NCBI GenBank assembly: GCA_022925895.1
Contig: JAKSYS010000654.1
Location: 1 to 34,965, forward strand
Origin: Fragilaria crotonensis
Taxonomy: Eukaryota; Bacillariophyta; Fragilariophyceae; Fragilariales; Fragilariaceae
Direction of reading: 5' to 3'
DNA length: 34,965 nucleotides
The stretch's first letter is position 1, and the number at the start of each line of letters is the position of its first letter. The translations under genes and the position numbers were made by a program. This document shows, piece by piece, positions 14,292 through 34,965 of the stretch. The notes under the pieces were generated by a model. It worked only from the letters and a program-made list of their open reading frames with translations. It was not told the origin of the DNA and searched no databases.

Positions 14292-16016
14292 TTATAGCGT
14301 GTCTGTCATTTGCGCCAGTCTCGTCACGACCAGCCCCTGCATTTCTGGTGTGGGTTGAAGCGCCCTTTTCGGCACGCCTTTAAACTCGGAGACGAACCCA
14401 CCATGTAATTGGAACTGATCTGTACCTACAAATGTGTCTTGAACATCCCTCCATCTATTGACCCAATTGGGATCGGCGGTAGTCAAGCCTTGGATATAGC
14501 CATTCAACAATGCCAAAAAGTCGCGATTCAGTTCGTCGGGGTTCACCTTGCGTTTACACCAAGCATTCGCATTCTGGACAATCTGCTTAACTTGCATTAA
14601 ACTTGAATTCTGAACTGCCCACTTTGCCACCTCGGTGAAATTCTCGAGTGACGCGGGAAGGTAGTGAACGCCAGGAATCAGGTCTGCCATGAAATATTCC
14701 TCATAATCTTCTTCGATTTCCAATCGAATCACAACGGAATTGTAACACAATAGTTTTGAAAATCGTCCCGAGAATGAATTCCCATCAATGTCCAAGACAG
14801 CCCGATAGCGCATCGATTCTTCCGATGGAGTGAAATTAGCTTGTTCCGTCTCACGAGCGCATGGTTTGGTGAATCCGAAATCCAGGTGGTCCCCATACTC
14901 AACCTGCTTTACAATCTCCATCATCTTCTTTCGATGATCCCGTTGTTGGGTGCAACTACCTCTCCAAAATGTTTTGGGTATCTTGTCCTCCATCGCCGGA
15001 AAGGTGTCGGTCCATTGCGAGAAGATTGTGTCCCAACCGCTAATACTGTTCGGCGAGGGCATGGTGGCAAGGCCGTACAACTCAAATGCAGGAAAGGGAA
15101 AGGCATAGTGACAACGAACATGTCGGCACAACGTCAGGAAAGGAACTGATTTCATGACATACGTCCCTTGCACTGACATGTTATAATTGTCCTTGTTGCA
15201 CCCCAAGAAATCGCTCAGGTCCATAATGACTGGGAACGAACCGACTTGTTTCAGTACGTCAACAAGCGCAGGGTATGGCTCGGGATCGTCCAAGAGTTGG
15301 AATCTCAAGGCGCGTTGAAAGTTAGGGAATAGTGGCTTGAGACGGCTTAGAATATCCACCGAGTGCCGTCGTCCCAAAACATTTTTGGCGAACCACAAGG
15401 TCGGTCTCGATCCGTTGTGCATGGCAACGAAACCAACGAATGGGCCGTACAACTTGTAATTCCAACCTGGATCAGGTTTGTGGTACGAGTTGTTTATAAA
15501 GTCGAGGATTGGGTCAAGCTCGATACCCTCAGCACCCCATGAATGGTAACTTGAATTCCGTTGTATTAGCTTTGGTTCGGCATCATTGGGACTGCGCACC
15601 ACTTTTGTCGTTGTCACCCACCCCACAGAGGACGTGGCATTCAACAGAAAGTCTTCTTGTCCAGCACCAAGGGCGCTGCGCAAGCTGCCAGAGAGCTGAT
15701 TGATTTGGATGATGCATGTCACAAATGCAAACAAGATGCAGATGCGGCCAACACTCAGTGAAGTACGAGATATCATTGGATGTCTCATGGCAGAATGCAG
15801 AATCGATTCAACCAAATCGACGGATGGCGTCCGGGAATTGGAACTCGGGACTGCGTCTACATGTGTGAAAATCGTGTTCGTAAACCTACCAGGAAGGTCC
15901 GGCCGCACCGTCGGAATCGTGGAAAATCCGAGAACACGTGACACATCATAGTAAGAGTATCGTTCCCACGCTGCGTGGTTTTCAACAGAAAAAAGCAAGG
16001 CCGGCGCGCTTATCAT
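14292..16016 (-). CDS. GT90 (CAP10-like) glycosyltransferase, type II membrane
   Basis: The frame has 574 codons. I prefer Met77 (15788) or Met81 (15776) as start: the following ~25 residues (about 87-104, GRICILFAFVTCIIQI) form a signal anchor typical of Golgi type II glycosyltransferases. The catalytic part has family-90 blocks in order: PKTFWRGS (about 348-354), DFGFTKPC (379-386), YRAVLDIDGNSFSGRFSKLL (404-423) and a C-terminal acidic segment EYFMADLIPGVHYLP (440-454). GT90 enzymes transfer xylose or glucose to proteins or polysaccharides (POGLUT, CXT1 of Cryptococcus). Here the acceptor is unknown; cell-wall or frustule-associated glycan is a guess. Several N-glycosylation sequons (NATS, NSSY, NGSR) fit a luminal domain. 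The 5' end of the open frame touches a palindromic repeat array that probably lies in the promoter. Confidence 0.85.
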   Translation of the reverse strand: MISAPALLFSVENHAAWERYSYYDVSRVLGFSTIPTVRPDLPGRFTNTIFTHVDAVPSSNSRTPSVDLVESILHSAMRHPMISRTSLSVGRICILFAFVTCIIQINQLSGSLRSALGAGQEDFLLNATSSVGWVTTTKVVRSPNDAEPKLIQRNSSYHSWGAEGIELDPILDFINNSYHKPDPGWNYKLYGPFVGFVAMHNGSRPTLWFAKNVLGRRHSVDILSRLKPLFPNFQRALRFQLLDDPEPYPALVDVLKQVGSFPVIMDLSDFLGCNKDNYNMSVQGTYVMKSVPFLTLCRHVRCHYAFPFPAFELYGLATMPSPNSISGWDTIFSQWTDTFPAMEDKIPKTFWRGSCTQQRDHRKKMMEIVKQVEYGDHLDFGFTKPCARETEQANFTPSEESMRYRAVLDIDGNSFSGRFSKLLCYNSVVIRLEIEEDYEEYFMADLIPGVHYLPASLENFTEVAKWAVQNSSLMQVKQIVQNANAWCKRKVNPDELNRDFLALLNGYIQGLTTADPNWVNRWRDVQDTFVGTDQFQLHGGFVSEFKGVPKRALQPTPEMQGLVVTRLAQMTDTL

Positions 16017-16026
16017 GTGGATCCTA

Positions 16027-16332
16027 ATCAGTGAAATTCCACTTACGGTAAGTGAAATTCCACTTACGGTAAGTGAAATTCCACTTATCGTAAGTGAAAT
16101 ACCACTTACCGTAAGTGGAATTCCACTTACGGTAAGTGGAATTTCACTTACTCACAATCCGAAAGAGATACGTGTCGCCTACGCAAATCAGTATGAAGAC
16201 ATTTCTCGTAAGTGATATTTCACTTACGGTCAGTGGAATTCCACTTACGGTAAGTGGAATTTCACTTACCGTAAGTGGAATTTCACTTACGGTAAGTGGA
16301 ATTCCACTTACGGTAAGTGGAATTCCACTTAG
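16027..16332. repeat. Two six-unit arrays of a 20-bp palindrome
   Basis: Twelve units of consensus GTAAGTGGAATTCCACTTAC, a perfect self-complementary 20-mer, are arranged as six units (16027-16151), a 56-bp unique spacer (16152-16207) and six units (16208-16332). Adjacent units are separated by one base (G or C), so the period is exactly 21 bp, two helical turns. Variation is mostly limited to the centre (GAAATTCC, GGAATTTC, GGAATTCC, GATATTTC). Because 21 is divisible by 3 and the unit is a palindrome, both strands read as open heptapeptide repeats (EIPLTVS/GIPLTVS), which I regard as incidental. The block lies about 240 bp upstream of the preferred start of the GT90 gene. Confidence 0.95.
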
Positions 16333-17061
16333 CATGAGAATACCTTGCCGGCTCGTTTGGATCAACCGTTCCAGCTACAAATATCGCAACAGACGTTATT
16401 GGAAGCCAGCGTTCGTGGAAATTACTCCCGGTAACGCAGCTTAACGGCTAGAACTTGTTTTGGCCGGACCTTCCAGGTACTACAGTAGTCGTACATACCA
16501 CGTACTGTACCTCTACTCTCTATGCATTATTCCGAGACTCCCAGTACACTCGATCTTACAGAATGTACAGTATTTTGTACTACCGTAGTGCTCCACATGA
16601 TACAGCTGATGTTGTACTGGAGACTGGTCTGGAGTACTTGTGCTGTATCATACCTGGTACTACAGTACTCGAGTACCTGATACTGGAGGCTGGAGGGTTG
16701 TACCATGGAAATCATTCATGGTGTACTGGTACACATGATGATGGCCTCAACTCTGCTGATACAGAAGCCTCTTTGAAAGGAACCATCAGAAAGATTACAC
16801 GACAGTGGATTACGCATGTAGATGAAATGCGAATAACTACAGTGCTTCGTCCTCTTATATCTTGTATATGAGCGCCTATTATTAATTATGGTTTTGTCTC
16901 AGGCCCTTGCCGTAATTCGGAGCATGCTGGCAAGTCATACCTGGATCGTCCTCACTTGTGCATCGTCCCACCAACGATGCTTCTCACTTACACTCTCATC
17001 ACGTAAAATCTATCGCCAATCGCTGGCTCTAGAGGGAATCTTTATTACGGTTGTCGGGACA
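16333..17061. other. Intergenic, rich in GTAC and ACTGTAC palindromes
   Basis: No gene is supported. From about 16470 to 16740 the DNA is packed with short TAC/GTA palindromes (GTACTACAGTA, GTACTGTAC, GGTACTACAGTACTCGAGTA), which keep frames open by composition. The rest, up to the end of the interrupted secreted-protein gene, shows nothing notable. Confidence 0.4.
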
Positions 17062-28400: not shown

Positions 28401-31183
28401 ATGCCGATCGGACCCATGCTACTGGTTGTTGCGGTGTCACTGACTCTGTCAATAAGGGCATCTGCCTTCCTATCTCCAATTCAATCGAATCTGCTGGGAG
28501 TACCGGAGAAACATCACTACCGACACGAACATACAGCTATTCACTCATCAGCTATTCCCACCGACCCGGAAGAAATCATCGAAGAAGAATTCATTTATGC
28601 ACCTGTACAAGACTTTACCTCGGAAGCCGACACAGCATCTCAGGCAAATTTGTTGGCTCAAAACGGACAAATCGAAATCCAAAAAGAAATCGAACAATCC
28701 TTCCTCCAGTATGCGTTATCCATTATTCTCGGCCGCGCCTTGCCGGATGCCCGCGATGGACTCAAACCGGTGCACCGTCGCATTTTGTTTGCCATGAATG
28801 AGCTCAAATTGGACGCTTCCAGTCCGCATCGCAAATGCGCCCGTGTGGTGGGCGAAGTGTTGGGCAAGTTCCACCCGCACGGGGATATGGCCGTCTACGA
28901 TGCCCTCGTCCGCATGGCACAGGACTTTAGCACCAACATGCCACTCATTGATGGACACGGAAATTTTGGATCAATCGATGCCGATCCGGCGGCGGCCATG
29001 AGATACACGGAATGTCGATTGACAAAGGTGGCGCAGGAAAGTCTATTGGAAGATTTGTATGAAGATACAGTGGATTTTGTACCAAATTTTGATGGAAATG
29101 AAGTAGAGCCGACTGTCTTACCAGCGAAGCTGCCAATCTTATTGCTCAACGGTTGCTCCGGCATTGCGGTTGGAATGGCAACGAACGTTCCTCCCCACAA
29201 TCTTCGAGAGCTCATGGCCGCTTGCAATGCTATCCTTGCCGAACGCAAGGATGATGGCACAGCCATACCCCTCAGTGATGCCGAACTGTTTCGTTTAGTA
29301 CCGGCACCGGACTTCCCGACAGGTGCCACGATTCTCGGGACCAGTGGTGCCAAACAATTGTACAGCACTGGCAACGGTGGAATTCAAATGCGCGCCGAGA
29401 CACAAATCGAGACGGTCCGTGTCAGCAAGTCGCAAACACGGACTGCCATCATCGTCACATCACTACCCTATCAAGTGAACAAGTCTCTGTTGTTGGAAAA
29501 AATTGCTGACCTTGTGAATGATAAGAAATTAGAGGGCATTGCAGACCTGCGAGATGAATCTGATCGTGATGGGATTCGAGTTGTCATTGAGTTGAAACGA
29601 GATGCCGTCGCGGCTGTGGTGTTGAATAATTTGTACAAAAAGACGCCGCTGCAAACCAGCTTTTCGGGCAATTTCTTGGCGCTCATGGGGTCGGGGACAA
29701 AACCGCAGCGATTCACCCTCCGATCGGCACTCGAATGCTTTCTTGATTTCCGATTCGATACCATTCGACGCCGATCCGCTCATTTGTTGGACAAGGTCGA
29801 AACAAGGACTCATATTGTTGAGGGACTGTTGAAGGCGTTGTTGTGCATTGATGAGGTGATTGGTATCATTCGGACTGCGTCGGATCAAAATGCGGCTCGG
29901 GAAGCATTGATGAATGGAGAAAACGCGAATCTCGCGCTGTCAGGGAACAGGCTGATGCTGTCCTTCGTCTTCAATTAGGACAATTGACCCGGTTGAACAA
30001 AGACAAGCTGGAGGACGAACGCAATGACTTGAAAAACACCGAGAAGAATCTTCAGCGACTCTTGACCGTGGACCAGGCAGTTCGCGATCTCATCACCGAG
30101 GAAAATAATGCACTTTCTGACAAATTCGGAGTTGATCGACGATCCAAAATTGAGGTCGACGACGCGGAAGAGCTAAATGACATGGATCTCATCAAGAATT
30201 CACGGTCGGTCATCGTCGTCACGCGTAGTGGTTACATCAAGCGCATGGCTTTGGTAGAATTTGAGAGCCAAAACAGAGGAACTCGGGGAAAGCGTGGTAT
30301 TTCGGATGGGAAGGCCGCTGACAACGAGATTGCTCACTGCTTTACATGCAATGATCACGATACCCTTCTTATGGTGACACAGAAAGGCATTGCGTATGGG
30401 TTGAGAGCCTATCAAGTTCCTACAGCAACAAGAACAGCGAAAGGAACTCCAATTCCTGCAGTTCTTCCGATTAATGCTGACGATACCATCAACTCAATTC
30501 TACCAGTATCTGAATTTTCAGAAGAAGAATACATCGTCGTGACTACTGAACAGGGTTGGATAAAAAAGACTTCACTCGCTGCGTTTGACAAACTCTCCAG
30601 CCGAGGGCTCACCATTGCTACCCTGGAAGACGGCGACCGCTTGGTGTGGTCATTGCTTTGCAAAGACGGGGACGACGTGCTAATTGGTACCAAACATGGC
30701 ATGGCAACTCGCTTTGAGTCGAGCAAACTCCGTGCCACTGGACGAACGAGTCGGGGTGTGCATGCCATGAAGTTAAAGGCTGGGGACGCAGTGGCTGACA
30801 TGAATGTCTTGAACGGCGATGCCAAGGTGACGAAAGCTAACCAAGAGTATGTGCTGGCGGTCACATCCCAAGGATATGGCAAACGCGTCCCAACGACTGA
30901 ATTCCGTACTCAAGCGCGCGGCGGGCTCGGCGTGGTGGCCATCAAGTTTAAGGCTTCCGCTTCTGGCCGGGATTTCGTCACGTGCTTGCGGACTGTGAAG
31001 GAGGACGACGAGGTCCTTGTTATTACTGCCAAGGGAGTGATTGTTCGACAACAAGTCAAGAACATCTCGTCACAGGGAAGAACTGCAACAGGTGTTCTGG
31101 TGCAAAAGCTAGATGCAGGGGATCACATAACTTCTGTCAGCCTTGTCCCTAAGTACGACGAGACGGATGCGACTAGGAAATAA
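28401..31183 (+). CDS. gyrA: DNA gyrase subunit A, plastid-targeted
   Basis: The start at 28401 gives a signal peptide ([20 protein letters not shown]) ending in ASAFLSP, the diatom motif for import through complex-plastid membranes. The mature enzyme has the canonical GyrA blocks: [32 protein letters not shown] with the DNA-linking Tyr at about residue 202, [18 protein letters not shown], and later [16 protein letters not shown]. The C-terminal beta-pinwheel includes a GyrA box ([10 protein letters not shown]), which marks gyrase rather than topoisomerase IV. With GyrB, not in the window, it supercoils plastid DNA. The frame breaks at the G3 run 29943-29945; one more G joins LSG to EQADAVL. 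The sequence otherwise reads cleanly, with a total of about 927 residues (E. coli GyrA has 875). Because this gene is expected to be essential, the break is probably an error in the sequence. Confidence 0.95.
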
Positions 31184-34436: not shown

Positions 34437-34965
34437 ATGCCACCCAACGACTACGACACTTTAGACAAGGAGTTGATCCAGAACGCTAGAGATGGTAATC
34501 ACGACAAGGTTCGTGACTTGTTGCGAATGGGCGCAGACGTGAATGCCAGAGATGTATTTGGCGAAACATGCCTTCTCCGGGCCGCATTCAATGGCCGTGT
34601 GAACGTCGTTCGCGAATTGTTGAAGCACGACAATGTAGACGTGAATGCCGAAGATGGTGCTGGTGATACGGCCCTTATTCTTGCAGTGCGTGAAGGACAT
34701 GTGGACGTCGTCTCCGAATTGTTGAAGCACGAGGACGTGGATGTCAACACCGAAGATTTTGAAGGGAACACGTCCCTTATCATCGCAACCTGTCACGGTC
34801 ATGTGGAAGTTGTGATCGAATTGTTGAAGCACAACAACGTGAATGTAAACGTCACGTCTCTAAGTACCGACGCATCTTATAGACTGGCGAGCACTGCTCG
34901 TCGTACAGACGTCGCCTCGAATCGACGCAAGGAGACTACATGGGGTATAGTAGCGAAAATGATGA
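34437..34965 (+). CDS. Ankyrin-repeat protein, 3' end beyond window
   Basis: An open frame from ATG 34437 (MPPNDYDTLDKELIQNARDG) stays open to the window end, 176 codons so far. Four ankyrin units of about 34 residues are visible: DGNHDKVRDLLRMGADVNARD, then three with the pattern G-T-L--A---GHV-VV-ELLKH--V-VN. The last three share near-identical DNA around GAATTGTTGAAGCACGA, indicating recent duplication. After the fourth unit the sequence becomes basic and non-repetitive (ARRTDVASNRRKE). There is no signal peptide, so it is probably a cytosolic or nuclear protein-binding scaffold; the partner is unknown. Confidence 0.8.
   Translation, partial: MPPNDYDTLDKELIQNARDGNHDKVRDLLRMGADVNARDVFGETCLLRAAFNGRVNVVRELLKHDNVDVNAEDGAGDTALILAVREGHVDVVSELLKHEDVDVNTEDFEGNTSLIIATCHGHVEVVIELLKHNNVNVNVTSLSTDASYRLASTARRTDVASNRRKETTWGIVAKMM

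Follow-up and report, generated by a model that had tools for sequence, protein, structure and literature searches.

A short non-autonomous DNA transposon contains the row of near-palindromic units upstream of a GT90 gene

The row of twelve 20-bp palindromic units that stands upstream of a GT90 gene in the window (the whole stretch of 34,965 nucleotides analysed here) forms the inner part of a small non-autonomous DNA transposon (MITE), and it is either the machinery or the baggage of that mobile element itself. The GT90 gene is the landing place of one copy, and the element is no dedicated operator. The structure is real and tidy and its kind, a MITE, is ordinary; what is unusual is the palindrome array, which relatives of the element rebuild in other geometries. 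The preliminary description, which placed the feature at 16027–16332, delimited the array correctly, but these positions are only the inside of a longer unit (Table 1).

The limits of the element were set by comparison with its other copies, whose similarity to the window copy reaches about 15892–16474 and ends there. Counted from GGAAGG to CCTTCC, the element is 583 bp long (581 bp if the outer G and C are assigned to the CAG duplication), and the array lies about 135–145 bp inward of its ends. The element thus has the short length and the terminal inverted repeats (TIRs, 13 bp here) of a MITE. As to a transposase of its own, none was found: the sole listed ATG-started open reading frame of at least 150 aa that enters the element is the start of the GT90 frame. 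Among the families read, the left subterminal region is specific to family A, to which the window copy belongs. A foldback transposon was ruled out, the TIR being only 13 bp and long terminal inverted repeats being absent; indeed, the self-complementarity of the element is due to its palindromic units and not to a long TIR. Just right of the element, window positions 16475–16760 hold a short palindromic stretch rich in GTAC and TACTG, and such DNA also lies beside some other copies (e.g. L005 and L006).

Table 1. Features of the window element and its surroundings, and loci at which the sister families were read
Feature	Position or locus	Strand	Remarks
Whole element, family A1	15892..16474	+	583 bp; match boundaries against other copies
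Left target-site duplication, CAG	15890..15892	+	
Right target-site duplication, CAG	16474..16476	+	
Left TIR, GGAAGGTCCGGCC	15892..15904	+	13 bp
Right TIR	16462..16474	-	GGCCGGACCTTCC on the + strand
Left subterminal region	15905..16026		40 scored matches, 82–100% identity
Block 1	16027..16151		six 20-bp near-palindromic units, 21-bp period
Centre	16152..16207		56 bp without units, common to copies; 25 matches
Block 2	16208..16332		six 20-bp near-palindromic units, 21-bp period
Subterminal box, CGAGCCGGCAAGGT	16342..16355	-	families A, B, C and D
Right subterminal region	16356..16461		40 scored matches, 75–100% identity
GT90 open reading frame	14292..16016	-	PF05686, E 3.4e-18
Family B	L034, L036, L037, L045		
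Family C	L032, L048		GGCA at the other end
Family D	L035, L048		GGCA at the other end

Family-A elements, incomplete copies included, occupy at least 46 places in the 62-Mb source genome, a lower bound that counts the distinct places recovered with the left and right subterminal regions (40 scored matches each). A genome search for the unit, proposed as a check in the preliminary description, revealed dispersed copies: the exact pattern GTAAGTN8ACTTAC occurs at 92 sites, compared with 7 for the reversed pattern. Family-A ends were present at the same place for all 50 palindrome sites listed of these 92, a coincidence that argues against satellite DNA. When the array region itself was used in a DNA search, it gave ten full-length matches at 91–100% identity, plus many weaker or partial ones. 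Thirty loci were cut out, six of which (L015, L019, L020, L023, L027 and L028) were reverse duplicates and were dropped, leaving 24 places; as a single end remains in L016 and L022 and the left flank is missing from L021, 21 copies entered the duplication count.

An identical CWG trinucleotide is found on both sides of the element in 18 of these 21 copies, the flanks being unlike in L009 (GTG/CTG), L024 (CAG/CTG) and L029 (CTG/CAG); the sole readable flank of L021, the right one, is CGG. With G and C as the terminal bases of the element, duplications of one, two or three bases look the same at family-A ends, and it is the C on the left and the G on the right of the element that point to a CWG target. 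Over the clan of related families described below, W agrees between the two sides in 67 of the 69 pairs of C/D-type ends. The two mismatching pairs are on contigs C131 and C184, the latter enclosing the nested copy L026. This count used 194 places, i.e. 99 of the CWG plus GGCA variant (100 listed of 135) and, for the rest, TIR+CCC places (58 of 79 preceded by CAG and 37 of 57 by CTG, contigs after C548 being left out, since the places listed for the GGCA variant stop at C549).

Evidence of an empty site came from L026 and L030, both nested inside a family-C element; their flanks are identical, so that the two could be a single insertion that was duplicated together with the DNA around it. Their joined flanks match four uninterrupted family-C copies with 203 of 203 bases aligned (L052, 98.0% identity; L032, 97.5%; L049, 97.0%; L053, 95.6%). 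Target-site duplications and empty sites, the further marks of a MITE, are thus both present, and these data show that the element is dispersed and inserts at CWG with duplication. The "selfish satellite" of the preliminary description was therefore apt in its adjective but not in its noun.

Most of the geometry first reported for the array was recovered on re-measurement: twelve units, two blocks of six (starting at 16027, 16048, 16069, 16090, 16111 and 16132, and at 16208, 16229, 16250, 16271, 16292 and 16313), steps of 21 bp throughout each block, one-base linkers and a 56-bp centre. Tandem Repeats Finder (TRF) scored the two blocks 195 and 199. The units are not, however, the perfect palindromes they were said to be, since only two of the twelve pair at 10 of 10 positions; nine positions are paired in seven units, eight in two and seven in one. 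Likewise, the 21-bp steps place the units of one block on a common face of the helix, but the blocks are 76 bp apart from start to start, which is no multiple of 21 or 10.5. Folded as a single strand, the array reaches -115.5 kcal/mol versus -29.1 (sd 3.7) for its shuffles (z -23), and a fold as good was obtained with none of 100 dinucleotide shuffles.

Family A divides into two subfamilies. A1 consists of the window copy and fifteen others read, nine of which (L002–L010) are 92–98% identical to the window copy, the remaining ones being shorter or cut; the eight A2 copies read are about 77–80% identical to it. Most A1 copies have 6+6 units, and A2 blocks usually have 6 or 7, although some copies are several units short: compositions of 6+6, 7+6, 6+7, 7+7 and fewer were seen, all differing by 21-bp steps (the "units" scored near the right end, at 82- and 16-bp steps, match by chance and lie outside the array). 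In L013 and L025, much of the array is lost and the CAG flanks are still identical. Within the unit, positions 4–7 and 14–17 (AGTG/CACT) hardly vary among 171 A1 and 106 A2 units (a few chance matches are counted among these). In A1 the central AATT hardly varies either, and position 10 is T in 14 of the 106 A2 units. Positions 8 and 13 vary without compensation, the 171 A1 units showing paired GC (51) and AT (17) and unpaired GT (48) and AC (42). The outer positions differ between the subfamilies: most A1 units do keep the GTAAGT arms emphasized at the outset, with their resemblance to a splice donor, but the arms are mostly CTAAGT or CGAAGT in A2, so neither the arms nor the resemblance is conserved.

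Comparison of seven 12-unit copies showed that orthologous units differ by 3.2% across copies versus 11.2% among the units of one copy; the array is therefore inherited whole, and its units are not freely turned over or homogenized at present. Variable sites, counted over seven copies, amount to 3 of 96 in the core (positions 4–7 and 14–17) against 21 of 156 at the other unit positions (p=0.007), a deficit that is not significant when the core is set against the element flanks (22 of 274, p=0.15). Pairwise divergence among nine copies was 0.24% in the core, 4.0% in the left flank, 2.2% in the right flank, 7.6% in the centre, 10% at positions 8/13 and 11.6% in the linker, which favours constraint on the core; because the pairs are not independent, we prefer the site counts. 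Constraint on the core positions is thus suggestive, and the selection on the arms put forward earlier is discernible relative to the rest of the unit but not relative to the flanks, i.e. weakly.

The 13-mer TIR occurs 319 times in the source genome (once for the reversed control) and ends at least three further families of about 0.5–0.7 kb, B, C and D; the ends of this clan are of the GGAAGGTCC type. These sister families have the terminal repeat, the subterminal box and the two-cluster layout in common with family A. In family B, the units are again 21 bp long, partly palindromic and inverted (GTCAGY...RCTGAC). Families C and D carry a hexamer almost only in one orientation, as direct repeats, with spacings of 13/17/20–21 and 10/19/29 bp. 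What is kept across families is therefore a hexamer like GTMAGY, and neither the palindrome nor the helical phase: the terms "helically phased" and "palindromic" suit families A and B but not C and D. The box, with at most one mismatch, is located 115–120 bp from the same end in all ten elements compared, representing the four families, and the first hexamer past it begins 22–23 bp after the box start in nine of the ten. GTMAGY or its complement is present 21 times per element in A1, 11 in A2, 17–21 in B, 14–16 in C and 14 in D, the hexamer being weakened in A2, where three of the 11 sites are outside the array. Shuffled elements (500 mononucleotide shuffles for each of the ten) contained about one, and six at most. 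As the motif was chosen by inspection, this enrichment is post hoc and descriptive, and it partly restates tandem repetition and common ancestry. Note that, for this comparison, the family-B copy at L034 was cut at its 1.3-kb interruption and that the A1 row lacked the two outermost bases on either or one side; the array was untouched in both cases. A separate 82-bp solo element, with ends GGAAGGTCCGGCC and GGGAGGTCCGGTA, was observed at L039 (in tandem), L040, L042, L043 and others, as well as at L031:702-783.

An autonomous element bearing the family-A TIR was not found when the places listed for the TIR were checked by eye against the listed DDE_Tnp_4 matches. The TIR places were the first 100 of 319 (13-mer), 100 of 139 (CWG+TIR+Y) and 100 of 135 (GGCA variant), along with all 79 CAG+TIR+CCC and all 57 CTG+TIR+CCC places. 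DDE_Tnp_4 domains are abundant in the source genome (150 scored of 333 candidates), and among those checked none was seen to belong to an element that bears this TIR. The candidates read, which had a DDE match nearby or a long span between ends, revealed no autonomous partner in contigs C228 (L047), C786 (L095), C704 (L096), C270 (L049), C365 (L050), C164 (L031 and L051), C179 (L032), C196 (L033), C218 (L052), C69 (L053) and C293 (L048). A search for the first 12 TIR bases about 1.5–1.7 kb upstream of 40 of the 150 DDE matches returned one match with a single mismatch, in L081, where the transposase sits within a different TIR and a TTA duplication; L056 and L080 contain matches with two mismatches, and those with three were taken as chance.

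Several of these loci hold other elements. L047 and L095 were rejected as partners, being other large elements that sit inside family-C copies (by eye for L047) and have their own TIRs (beginning GGGTGGATCC and GGCCCTCCC, respectively) and apparent TAA duplications. Each comprises a transposase frame overlapping the DDE_Tnp_4 match and a large second frame on the opposite strand (L047:557-4700 and L095:1474-5752). Other Harbingers may thus use the hexamer arrays to land in. The insert within the family-C copy at L049 (226-3896), with a 500-aa frame giving no Pfam match, was rejected for its TIR, TGGCTTGTTTC, and its TA duplication. L050 appears to be two separate elements flanking a gene, and a WRKY19-type zinc finger frame (PF24906, E 2.4e-9) is located between its two clan fragments (L050:1020-1334). 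The transposase element of contig C44 (L081 and L094) is about 4.2 kb long, has the TIR GGCGGTGTGTAT and a TTA duplication, and adjoins what by eye appears to be an old relic of the 82-bp element.

The GT90 frame as listed begins within the element, which supplies its first 41 codons. The true start is therefore probably outside, at one of the next two in-frame ATGs (15788 or 15776). Elsewhere in the window, two frames (28401–29978 and 30182–31183) are apparently two exons of one gene, which we take to be that of DNA gyrase subunit A; an ASAF-like N-terminal motif, as typically carried by plastid-targeted proteins of diatoms and their relatives, is seen in this gyrase-like frame. A 102-bp (34-residue) tandem repeat, which resembles the ankyrin type, is present at the window edge (34598–34850), and similar DNA is found near the family-A copy at L002.

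The account to which we incline, at slightly better than an even chance, is that family A is a MITE of a clan of at least four families, mobilized by a foreign transposase, and that its arrays offer a transposition protein many recognition sites. The transposase, supplied by another element and putatively a PIF/Harbinger enzyme of the NuwaI type, would recognize the 13-bp ends and move the element, with insertion at CWG and duplication. A Myb/SANT-like partner, or the transposase itself, would bind the repeated half-sites of the two clusters and gather the two ends into one complex. The number of units would drift by one-unit steps through slippage or unequal exchange, and new families would arise by re-amplification of the hexamer at a different spacing. 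A multi-site platform is, in our judgement, the best mechanism for the arrays, by analogy with known systems and given a two-cluster plan in which one hexamer recurs across differing arrangements. The multi-site protein binding first envisaged would thereby remain the preferred function, for a transposition protein and not for the control of GT90.

Its main rival, a serious possibility to which we nevertheless give distinctly less credence, is that the arrays are passive minisatellites, grown by slippage in an ancestral copy and hitch-hiking in the MITE with no role in transposition. Such repeats could well vary in number by 21-bp steps between copies and in period and orientation between families, and their core need not be less variable than the flanks, from which it does not differ significantly. 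L013 and L025, short of the array between intact CAG flanks, fit this account too, although the loss may have followed landing. What argues against passivity is that two clusters, one hexamer and a fixed box-to-hexamer distance recur despite the differing arrangements of the repeats, and that the closeness of orthologous units speaks against free turnover now.

Other explanations fare much less well. That the array is an operator of the GT90 gene or phases nucleosomes for it, as was initially suggested, is very unlikely: it lies some 0.1 kb upstream of where GT90 probably starts, and it could affect the gene after landing, but its presence at no fewer than 46 places, with TIRs and target-site duplications in the copies read, means that it did not evolve for GT90. 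We regard as similarly improbable that the palindromes act as structure, by extruding cruciforms or by giving a long hairpin transcript as a source of small RNAs; self-folding is very strong (z -23), but the uncompensated variation at positions 8/13 and the single orientation of nearly all hexamers in C and D are not what a selected fold would leave. The consensus splice donor matches GTAAGT arms, as in most A1 units, and it is hardly credible that the arms serve as donors on both strands, given their form in A2 and the GTCAG-type arms of B and D.

If the arrays are instead platforms for a transposition protein, the four families form a natural series in which the spacing, orientation and number of sites vary while the ends stay constant, and the effect of site architecture on transposition success becomes testable. 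A more tentative extension, which we hold to be rather doubtful, is a non-animal, CWG-inserting, Harbinger-type clan in which a single recognition hexamer was amplified (11–21 per element) and brought again and again into a new geometry (21-bp inverted units, 10/19-bp direct units), so that families compete for one transposition protein through the number and spacing of its sites. If true, it would extend the Harbinger relatives that insert at CWG beyond animals, as the window resembles DNA of a diatom or other ochrophyte. Passive arrays, by contrast, would leave no more than a common type of MITE family that has a minisatellite inside.

The closest known systems are the NuwaI group, Galileo and Tetris, Ac/Ds of the hAT family, and Harbinger3_DR, whose target site is CWG. 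A literature search, to which subscription journals were mostly inaccessible, found no paper on palindrome arrays of this sort (in the part of PMC12595863 consulted, "CWG" is only an author's initials). The NuwaI group of the PHIS (PIF/Harbinger) superfamily is defined by its CWG duplications, and most of its autonomous candidates encode a DDE transposase and a Myb/SANT protein; in the sections consulted, the 836-genome survey reports the group from animals only (section 7), or "mainly" from animals (abstract), and does not mention internal palindrome arrays (PMC4482050). The clan of family A has the CWG duplication, with empty sites, and a TIR within the reported 12–61 bp, but no transposase or Myb frame was found with its TIR, which begins GGA (or GAA, with the G assigned to the duplication) and not with the usual GGG (PMC4482050). 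A GGG start is typical of NuwaI without defining it, family A having GGAAGG. Its target site points to the NuwaI group of the PIF/Harbinger superfamily; because no autonomous partner was found among the elements checked, membership is that of a candidate.

As regards internal repeats, Galileo and Tetris are foldback elements; extra transposase sites in tandem repeats have been reported for Galileo, and the same is proposed for Tetris, according to the parts of PMC4079207 consulted. Like Tetris, for which no autonomous partner was found either, family A is non-autonomous, with tandem repeats that flank a middle region and vary in number; it differs in its 21-bp near-palindromic units (about 220 bp in Tetris), in its 13-bp TIR and in that no long satellite arrays were seen among the family-A places listed (PMC4079207). 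Ac transposase binds a repeated AAACGG, so that here too a short hexamer is repeated inside the ends, and some elements are alike in little beyond a short TIR; the Ac/Ds sites are, however, within the terminal 200 bp and their binding is known, whereas binding at the family-A sites is a proposal (PMC3260210, in part). Harbinger3_DR is a zebrafish element with proteins of its own, likened to family A by description; a 9-bp subterminal motif is bound by its Myb-like protein, much as the family-A arrays would be bound under our proposal (PMC9710019, in part).
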